This document shows positions 12,506 through 18,583 of a stretch of 64,000 nucleotides of DNA, in pieces. The stretch comes from Polytrichum commune (taxonomy: Eukaryota > Streptophyta > Polytrichopsida > Polytrichales > Polytrichaceae): assembly GCA_950295325.1 (NCBI GenBank), contig OX485806.1, forward strand, positions 22,940,001 through 23,004,000. The letters run 5' to 3'. Both the position numbers and the translations under genes were made by a program. The notes under the pieces are model-generated. The model did no database searches. It saw nothing but the letters and a program-made list of their open reading frames with translations, and was not told where the DNA came from. How positions within the stretch are numbered: position 1 is the first letter of the stretch; each line of letters opens with the position of its first letter.

Positions 12506-15500
12506 TTATGACATCGTAGGAGCGACAGACCGGTGATAATGGACAAGCTTCCAATCAGAACCGCCATTGTCATTTTTAAGTCGTTGCCACACTCCAGTCT
12601 CATTATAAGCTTCCACATAACCCAATTCAGGGTGGCCCGGTTTTTGAAGTAATCGCGTGTACAATACGAGACCAACTCCGCTGTTGAGGATGGTGACTTT
12701 GGGTGCAACTACGGTCGAGCGCAACATTTGTGAAAGTGAGAGCCTGTCTGTAGCGTGACCGAGATTAAACTTGAAATTGCGCAGGTCCATGCCTTCCACA
12801 AGTTGACCTGCCAATTATTACAAGTTGATATTTCAAGTTAGAAGAAGATGCCGTAGTGGTCATGCCATGGGGTTTTGCTACCATGTCACTTCCTGATTGG
12901 ATACGAGGAGACACATCATTACCCACAACTAATGACCCTGCCAGGACCTGACCACTAACATTAGGTAATGGAAACATGTCACCCTGCCATTGCATGTAGT
13001 AAGCATCCGATATCTCCTTACCATTGCTATGGCTCCTAACATCCACTGTTGAGTTCATAGTGGTCATGCTTGATGAACTGTATCACCCATAATTGATGAC
13101 CCTGCCATGACCTAACCACTACGTCCGACAATGGACATGTGTTGCCCTCCTATTGGTTGCAATGAGCACCCAATACCTATCTCATCAACCCCTACTACAA
13201 CTCCTTGCATCCATTACCTAGTTGGTAGTGGTCATGCTGGATGATTTTGATGACATGTTTATTCTTAATTGGATACAAAGACACACAATATCATCTGTAA
13301 TTGATGACCTTGTCATGACCTTACCACTACGTCCGTCAAACAACGTACATGTGTTGCCCAACCATTGGTTGCATCAACCATCCAATACCCACCTTGCTAC
13401 TACCTCCAACTCCACAGCCAATTTTGGCCCTTGGATGAGATAGGGGGCTATCTCATCTAATCAGCAATTGCGTAGAATCACACAGATTGTCATTTCCACT
13501 TTCATGGTCCTAGCTGAGATGTAAAAGTTTATGGGAGGTCAAACCGAACATTCTTTTCTCTCTGTTTAGATGAATCCATAGACCATCCCAATTGTGATGT
13601 TAAATGTGGAACATAGAATGCTGTCTAAATTCTGAGCACATTCACTCAAATATCATCGTAACATGTGTCTTTTTGACATCCATTCTGAACTGTAAGCCTT
13701 GTCATACACCACTCAAATATAGGTGTCTGTTTAAGAAGAGTGACCCCAAATACTTTTAGTATCAATAAGCAGATCATTCCTTCCTTAAATTTCAGAAAGC
13801 CACTGAGGATATGCAATGGGTTAATACTATAGGTGCACTATCTGATGCATGTTCAAAATTTGTTGATTACTCTAGGTTCAATAGTCAACATGATTGGAGG
13901 AAATGCATGATAATTTAAGAAAGAAGAATGTCTTCAATTAAAAATGCATAAGATATACATATGAGCTCCAAAAATTGCGAGGAGAATGCCTTTAGCCTCT
14001 ATTTTGATTTGCTAATCATCTTGTACTAATCGTGTCTTTAATATTCTGGTGGAAATGGGCTAATCGGAAAAAATAACCATTGAAGACCTTTCTACCTCAT
14101 ACTGAACAGCAATGTGGTGATGATGTGTGTAAGTTACCTTGAGCTTGTGGCTCGAACACTGTAACTTCGGGGTGGCAATACTGTTGATAGATCTTATAGT
14201 TACCTTCGTCAAGACCTTGACAAAGTTGCACAGTGGCCTGAAGAAGATCGTCCTGTCAAGTGAAAACCACAAAGTTTGTTGTAATCAGGGATTAGGTGAC
14301 AAGCTTGTAGTCCACTTTATAAAGGTCAAATATTTGCTGGTAACAATCTGTTCTCTTTGCAGAACTAGACTAAATTGTCCTTTAGTGCAGGCCACAGTAG
14401 TTCTCTAGAACCTATGGCAAATCTCTAGTTAAAAATTTGTAGTCACATTAATTGATTTTCTAGGAATTTGATGTGAGTAACTATTTTATTTTATGCTATG
14501 TTCGTCCTGATACTCGTGGTGTCGGTCAGAAATTTCCAGGAAGACTTAAGGGAACACCTGGGATCTTGGGCCTACATTATTTCCACGCTGACTAGGCAAT
14601 TAGAGTGGCCCACATGTATTGTTTCCACATTAATTTTCCAACCACACTTATAGGACAATTTAGTGTACTCAAATGAAAAGTTCCATATATAGAAGGTTTA
14701 GAGTTTGCACTTGTATGTAAGGCTCAAACAATGGTTCGATTTCTGCAAACACATCCTCAATAGGCTGCATCGCATTGATCTGCAAAGGAACTCCACAAAG
14801 CACATTATGAGCTTCCTTGCTACATAAACATTAAGATGGCCCACAGGTGGCGGGTACTGTACAAGAGTTCGAGTAAACTTTCAAGTAACAACTTGAAGAA
14901 GATTGCCAGGATAATTTTTGTTGTGTTTGTGCAGCTTCAAATCCATCCTAGAAAAAAGCTATATAAGAAGGTAATGGAGGTGGAGAAGGTAACCAAGATA
15001 GTCTTTTGGGCTGTTTCTCATATTGTAGTTCTAACCAAAGTAGAAATTCTTTTGATGAACTTCACAAACCCTAGAATTATCATTTAATTCAACCAGACTA
15101 TTGCTTGGAAGTTGGTTGTTTTTGGATACAAAACTTTCCATGTTTGCTAAGTTTCTGCTGCATGCTTGGAGTCTGGTGTGGGGGTTTAACTGTAGAACAT
15201 TCCATATCAGTTCATTGGAGGTCAAACTCAGTTTAGCACCTGTTGGCATGCCAAAATTAGTTTGGCCCTCAATGAGCCGATACAGAAAGTTCTTTGTTCA
15301 AATGTCCTTACCAACTCCAAGCATGCACCACAAACTTACCAAACATGGAAAGTATTGTATGCAAAACAACCAACTCCAGACCAAAACTCTGGTTAAAATA
15401 AAAATTAACTCTCCTTTGTCTACAATAACTCAACTTTGTTATTGTTGGAAATTATTTTTCCCAACATGATACAAGGAAACTAAAGGTTGTTACTCACCTT

Positions 15501-18500: not shown

Positions 18501-18583
18501 CTTTTGAAGAAGATCTGAAATGTCTGATAACCCACCTTAGAATCTCCAGAGCCAGCAGACCTTGGTTGGATAGTTGTTGCCAT
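12506..18583 (-). CDS. UMP/CMP-type nucleoside monophosphate kinase fused to a CaMKII association (hub) domain
   Basis: Nine exons, listed 5' to 3' on the minus strand: 18583-18536, 17810-17738, 17107-16990, 16612-16456, 15840-15760, 15605-15498, 14779-14711, 14252-14138 and 12807-12506. Phases agree throughout and give 356 aa. Residues 41-218 are a kinase that would move phosphate from ATP to UMP/CMP: P-loop [29 protein letters not shown], a LID with GRNQDRDDDN, then [11 protein letters not shown]. Residues 219-356 match the oligomerising C-terminal domain of CaM kinase [35 protein letters not shown]. No Ser/Thr kinase domain is present. I start at MATTIQ (gccATGG context); an upstream Met at 18634 has a poor context. 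No clear targeting signal, so probably cytosolic. The weakest point is the donor after exon 7 (CAA|GTGCAA). Confidence 0.85.
12851..13425. repeat. Three degenerate tandem copies of a 170-205-bp unit in intron 8 of the kinase-hub gene
   Basis: Units begin near 12853, 13055 and 13226 at 'gtagtggtcatgc' or a close variant. Each carries a 'gatgaccctgccatgacctaaccactac' type phrase and a 'ggacatgtgttgccc' type phrase. They lie directly upstream, in transcript order, of the last coding exon. Open frames here are by-products of the repeat. Confidence 0.7.
14365..14668. mobile_element. MITE with CTACACTAAA-type ends in intron 7 of the kinase-hub gene
   Basis: The left end 'ctagactaaattgtcctttagtg' and the right end, read inverted, 'agtacactaaattgtcctataagtg' form terminal inverted repeats of about 24 bp around a non-coding 304-bp unit. 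A relative lies at about 59383-59697. It sits 43 bp downstream of the exon 7 donor, inside the intron that separates the kinase half from the hub half. Confidence 0.75.
15095..15400. mobile_element. Foldback element, copy 1 (intron 6 of the kinase-hub gene)
   Basis: The left half ('gaagttggttgttttt', 'ctttccatgttt', 'gcatgcttgga') is repeated inverted in the right half ('tccaagcatgcacca', 'aaacatggaaagt', 'caaaacaaccaactcc'), with arms of about 120-130 nt around a short centre. Closely related units occur at 22236-22600 and 34546-34795. There is no coding sequence, so this is a non-autonomous foldback MITE. Confidence 0.8.
15925..16285. mobile_element. Dispersed MITE-like repeat, copy in intron 4 of the kinase-hub gene
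   Basis: The unit opens with 'atttggttactcttcataat' and closes with 'ctagttagagaaagtagccattt', an imperfect terminal inversion. Inner landmarks are 'tttgaatggtatgtggttgggtgtgg', 'agtcaacataattgggg' and 'gagctccaaaaattatgagg'. The same landmarks recur at 17335-17725, 17925-18300, 13700-14095, 25905-26215 (inverted), 51880-52020 (inverted), 56160-56345 and at the window start. Confidence 0.7.
17335..17725. mobile_element. Dispersed MITE-like repeat, copy in intron 2 of the kinase-hub gene
   Basis: It carries the family landmarks: 'tttgaatggtgagtggttaggtg', 'gatagtcaacataattggggggg', 'aattcatatcaattcgagattagctcc', and the ending 'aaccaaataaaccccatctacctta'. The latter half matches the first 270 bases of the window, so two subtypes of this repeat exist. 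It is non-coding. Confidence 0.65.
17925..18300. mobile_element. Dispersed MITE-like repeat, copy in intron 1 of the kinase-hub gene
   Basis: It opens with 'attcagttacttttctaatt' and closes with 'ataattggacacagtaaccattt', which pair as imperfect terminal inverted repeats. Inside are 'gagtggtatggggtttggcatggctcc', 'tcaatagtcaacataat' and 'gagctccaaaaattatgagg'. About 18293-18436 directly after it is a partial MITE of the 35516-35709 type, ending 'ccacactaaatcagatgtttag', so several elements are nested or adjacent in this intron. Confidence 0.65.

Follow-up and report, generated by a model that had tools for sequence, protein, structure and literature searches.

A single gene of the moss Polytrichum commune probably encodes a UMP/CMP-type nucleotide kinase with a C-terminal CaMKII-type hub, a combination that would have arisen by exon replacement and in which the hub is likely to oligomerise the kinase. 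The nine exons lie on the minus strand at 12506-18583 of the window (the whole stretch of 64,000 nucleotides that was analysed, 22,940,001-23,004,000 of contig C4) and join in phase into a coding sequence of 1065 nt, or 355 codons including the stop, for a product of 354 residues. All eight introns are GT-AG with consistent phases, and the nine in-phase exons on one strand that an earlier note on this DNA had proposed are thereby upheld. Contamination is unlikely, since the window sits inside a 59-Mb contig of a 408-Mb assembly with 64 contigs. Apart from one weak donor, every sequence test that was made supports a fusion gene, and we infer that its transcript is spliced in the cell as modelled.

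In the joined model, exon 1 (18536..18583) provides the start codon and an N-terminal lead (MATTI...), with a further in-frame ATG at 18634; by eye, a UMP kinase paralog named L010 also begins with MATTI. Exon 2 (17738..17804) adds more of the lead and the first kinase strand (KVVFVSG), as placed by the model and the alignment to the solved kinase 1qf9. The kinase continues through exon 3 (16990..17107, 118 nt), with the P-loop GGPGSGKGT and the start of the NMP-binding part, exon 4 (16456..16612, 157 nt), with the NMP-binding part and GFPRN, exon 5 (15760..15840, 81 nt), with the core as far as the start of the lid, exon 6 (15498..15605, 108 nt), with the lid (DRDDDN) and the next helix, and exon 7 (14711..14779, 69 nt), which holds the C-terminal part and ends in LFEPYIQ. 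The junction intron, intron 7, spans 458 nt (14253..14710). Behind it, Pfam and solved-hub matches place the first helix and the FEP motif of the hub in exon 8 (14138..14252) and the beta-sheet part of the hub, together with the stop codon, in exon 9 (12506..12807).

The introns of the gene contain two families of repeats with units of 133-146 nt, one at 13955-14100, 16142-16287 and 18151-18296 and the other at 15918-16050, 17338-17470 and 17917-18049, whose copies resemble the reference copy at 68-82%. In a second paralog locus, L011, a similar stretch was noticed by eye at about 4050-4400. Intron 6 also carries an inverted repeat of 53 nt (15120-15172 and 15314-15366, 91% complementary, with a 141-nt spacer), and similar letters were seen by eye in the L011 intron at the same place. 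Elsewhere in the window, on the plus strand, frames at about 6106-8628 match UBA_ARI1, IBR and Ariadne domains of an Ariadne-type RBR ubiquitin ligase gene, a frame at 21512-22219 has a weak calcineurin-like phosphoesterase (metallophosphoesterase) match barely over the cut-off, and a Copia-type gag frame at 36895-37395 is part of an LTR retroelement. In the wider assembly, contig C8 has two adjacent full-length PsaA/PsaB frames, and short PsaA/PsaB-like pieces with stops lie on large contigs (G000:C4:47707642-47707821 and C5:337267-337371), the latter probably being plastid DNA inserted in the nucleus. The plastid PsaB protein has its highest scores against 8htu, 6l35 and 7ksq (1700-1705 bits, with 1667 for the next match), which are photosystem I structures of Physcomitrium, and this suggests a moss as the source.

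The kinase part is a complete domain. Pfam ADK matches residues 37-189 (E 1e-45), and the NCBIfam model UMP_CMP_kin_fam (TIGR01359) covers residues 34-211 with 237.3 bits against a curated cut-off of 207.6. Among solved structures, the closest matches are UMP/CMP kinases, headed by 1qf9 (E 2e-52) from Dictyostelium, and the P-loop, GFPRN and the lid R.DDNIES are intact in the alignment to it. The score above the cut-off and the intact motifs agree with the complete UMP/CMP-type kinase of the earlier note. Its observation that the Ser/Thr kinase of CaMKII is missing from the chain holds as well: the kinase is of the ADK type, and no protein-kinase family occurs among the 10 Pfam matches of the fusion protein.

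Directly behind the kinase, as had been claimed, follows a CaMKII association domain. Pfam CaMKII_AD (PF08332) matches residues 218-351 with an E-value of 2.6e-16 and 60.4 bits against a gathering cut-off of 22.1, spans profile positions 4-128 of 128 and leaves six residues between the end of the kinase match at 211 and its own start at 218. The best solved hub relatives are 2w2c (E 9.8e-17) and 6of9 (E 5.8e-15). The ADK and CaMKII_AD scores are both far beyond chance. Furthermore, the structure of exon 9 alone was predicted with an alignment of eight bacterial hubs as input, giving a mean pLDDT of 73 (less than 50 at residues 12-25), a pTM of 0.60 and four strands. In a Foldseek search with this model, the best 50 of 811 matches were all either the Chlamydomonas hub or chains from CaMKII hubs and holoenzymes, at a probability of 1.00, at query TM-scores of 0.47-0.56 and with none of the 811 matches reaching E 0.001. 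The model thus backs the hub fold weakly, and the sequence scores weigh more.

The origin of the fusion can be approached through two UMP kinase paralogs in the same genome, L010 on contig C5 and L011 on contig C4, whose exon borders were assigned by eye from the AG/GT sites. The three genes do not differ in the lengths of exons 3-7 (118/157/81/108/69 nt). The identity to the fusion kinase is 66% for L010 and 60% for L011, free of gaps over 178 residues, with dN of 0.24 and 0.29, respectively; this gap-free identity suggests that the kinase part of the fusion is a constrained enzyme. Exon 7 of both paralogs stops at the codon that corresponds to its end in the fusion gene, and the donors there are CCT|GTAAGT and CAA|GTAAAT, which indicates that the intron at 14710 was inherited. 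The junction from 14711 to 14252 given in the earlier note therefore starts at an intron border common to L010 and L011. The next exon of L010 encodes a tail of 25 residues, TAADVEGELIEAIKKHNLRGVPTPA, followed by a stop. While L010 is like the fusion gene in its exon 3-7 lengths and in 66% of its kinase residues, it differs in having this tail exon as its end, and the best hub match in its locus reaches only E 3.2. A third copy, L025 (G000:C3:35540500-35544000), is a decayed UMP kinase with the P-loop GEPCCGKGT and, by eye, broken frames and a last exon resembling the L010 tail.

Among the matches scored, no hub lies elsewhere in the genome. The whole-protein search gave at least 28 matches, of which both hub matches (residues 215-257 and 254-354) lie in the window, and in a CaMKII_AD family search of the 408-Mb genome, with counts that are lower bounds, exon 9 was the only match among those listed. 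Behind the conserved intron of L011, at about 3250-3480, a frame stays open for some 60 codons up to a stop and looks hub-like by eye. It was considered as a hub remnant and rejected, as a 12-hub profile lists no L011 frame at E <=10 and the frame from 3214 scores E 30. The shared exon lengths, the donor at the junction and the tail exon of L010 together make replacement of the terminal exon behind an old intron the most likely origin: a UMP kinase gene would have been duplicated, and in one copy the short terminal exon would have been exchanged for two hub exons.

The junction donor itself is weak. CAA|GTGCAA at 14710 matches CAGGTAAGT at four of nine places, ties with the exon 3 donor of the same gene as the weakest of 21 donors in the three genes, and is equalled or surpassed in its match to the consensus by 57% of the GT sites in the window. 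Reading through intron 7 adds 13 residues before a stop, and an AATAAA lies in the intron at 14490, while a look at the 606 nt that follow the hub stop found none. Read-through could in principle end the kinase in intron 7 and leave exons 8-9 to another transcript. We regard such a pair of genes as highly improbable, given that the junction donor is homologous to the intron border of two paralogs. The earlier note had asked whether exons 8-9 have a start of their own, and in intron 7 none was found: not one of its five ATGs has an in-phase (phase-0) GT donor to exon 8, which makes two separate genes less plausible. In addition, the reading frame is closed by a TGA one codon upstream of exon 8.

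The weak donor also makes a kinase-only form by intron retention possible, and together with the read-through stop and the AATAAA it suggests that the gene could make the kinase alone in addition to the fusion. An extension of this idea, to which we give little credence, is that splicing sets the assembly state: read-through would yield a free UMP kinase and joining to the hub a multimer, so that one regulated intron would cluster or release the kinase sites. It is likewise unlikely that the hub is an appendage under relaxed constraint or in decay and that the working product is the kinase-only protein from retention of intron 7. The weak donor, the 13-residue tail with its stop and the position of the AATAAA would fit such decay, as would the change of 11 of the 32 columns that are invariant in 11 other hubs (three animal, eight bacterial) and the long branch of the fusion hub. 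This branch measures 3.7 in a tree of 12 rows (the fusion, three animal and eight bacterial hubs, with the Chlamydomonas hub left out), too long to place, and with four of nine inner branches open the tree gives no placement with regard to a bacterial or algal origin. Against decay, 138 codons of hub frame are free of stops, GC content differs among the codon positions of the hub in the same way as it does in the kinase part, the hub still scores 60-63 bits in Pfam, and the other 21 of the 32 invariant columns are kept. We retain the fusion protein with a hub that most likely oligomerises the kinase as the preferred reading.

To describe the assembly surfaces, hub contact residues were mapped onto CaMKII alpha with the contact list given in section 6 of PMC11199487. 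Five of the six residues of the vertical (dimer) contact are kept (T378, T452, H466, H468 and S470), and H420 is replaced by T. In the lateral contact, Q436 and F397 are kept, and F394 and I434 are both replaced by L, a conservative change in the case of I434. The hydrophobic patch keeps V389 and shows L438 to P, P444 to G, L385 to Q and L415 to V changes. According to PMC11199487, F394 is the most important of four key lateral residues in CaMKII alpha, exchange of the corresponding F of CaMKII beta for A leads to mostly small assemblies, the F394 bond is made through the backbone, and L at position 434 is the CaMKII beta residue. The ligand pocket, as listed in PMC12148480 and with states read from alignments, keeps two of four residues (R433 and R469), and H395 and R453 have become R and G. 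Judged by these alignments, the hub is diverged in both its lateral ring contacts and its ligand pocket.

These observations bear on the ring of 12-14 subunits that the earlier note had inferred. The retained Q436 and F397 speak for this proposal, and the F394 to L replacement and the altered patch speak against it. With five of six vertical contacts kept and lateral contacts altered, a dimer is ranked above a ring of 12-14 subunits; a dimer is thus better supported by the residues, and a ring is possible. The fusion product may accordingly be described as a putative oligomeric UMP/CMP kinase, a dimer at least, held by the vertical contact. Such an oligomer would cluster the kinase sites or place a small-molecule pocket beside them.

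A related reading is that the hub serves as an NTF2-like dimerisation and ligand module that builds no ring, and that the kinase dimer is regulated through the hub pocket. We consider this possible though somewhat less probable than not, and it overlaps with the preferred reading, which admits a dimer or a ring. It would account for the kept vertical and altered lateral contacts and for the retention of R433 and R469 in the pocket list of PMC12148480. According to PMC9120016, dimers dominate the superfamily and are its commonest assembly among structures (11/23), rings grew from dimers by gaining the lateral contact, and a Pirellula hub is a fourteen-subunit oligomer. However, with H395 and R453 changed, binding of the known ligands is not a given. 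The fusion hub also retains Q436, F397 and an aliphatic residue at position 434, L could serve at 394 since the bond of F394 is made through the backbone (PMC11199487), and the best solved matches are, judged by their titles, hubs of 12 to 16 subunits. Oligomerisation of the kinase by the hub, in a dimer or possibly a ring, remains our preferred reading.

The CaMKII hub is known for building the ring of a single signalling kinase, the memory kinase CaMKII, and has relatives in algae and bacteria; McSpadden reportedly described hubs outside animals in 2019. Among the open-literature matches listed, judged by title or the start of the abstract, no report of a nucleotide kinase fused to a hub was found, in line with the earlier note, which knew of no description; other mosses may nonetheless have annotated examples already. 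If the fusion is real, a hub module could be captured in a land plant by an unrelated housekeeping enzyme through exon replacement behind an old intron, and the gene would provide a natural case in which to see how an enzyme other than a protein kinase is affected by hub assembly.

Compared with known systems, the kinase part is like the eukaryotic UMP/CMP kinases (TIGR01359; 1qf9, 1uky, 1tev) in having the full domain with P-loop, GFPRN and lid, whereas the four listed UMP/CMP or uridylate kinase chains have 194-214 residues and the fusion, with its hub, has 354. When prokaryote genomes were scanned, nine loci with a hub (L016-L024) came up in MAGs assigned to Planctomycetes, Gemmatimonadetes and, in one case, Latescibacterota. 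Identity to the fusion hub is 38-39.5% for the hubs of L016-L018, 34-35% for three from Gemmatimonadota and 27-28% for those of L023 and L024, making eight bacterial hubs compared. The nine bacterial hub ORFs span 138-208 codons between stops, too short for a second enzyme, and none of the 736 frames in the nine loci of about 5 kb is a relative of the kinase, while the hub, as a positive control, was found in all nine. The nine pattern matches in viral_contigs include no true relative. Outside animals, a hub is also present in Chlamydomonas (6of9, titled a hub homology domain), so the remark in the earlier note that non-animal hubs are known holds. The animal CaMKII hubs (PF08332; for example 2w2c, 1hkx and 8t15) belong to the same profile family, are of similar length and likewise stand C-terminal to a kinase, and they share with the fusion the FEP and VEG motifs, Q436, F397 and five of six vertical-contact residues. 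The fusion hub is 30-34% identical to three animal hubs and differs from the animal domain in F394, H395 and R453 and in insertions of 4 and 5 residues. The partner domain differs as well, being a protein kinase in CaMKII and a nucleotide kinase in the moss fusion.
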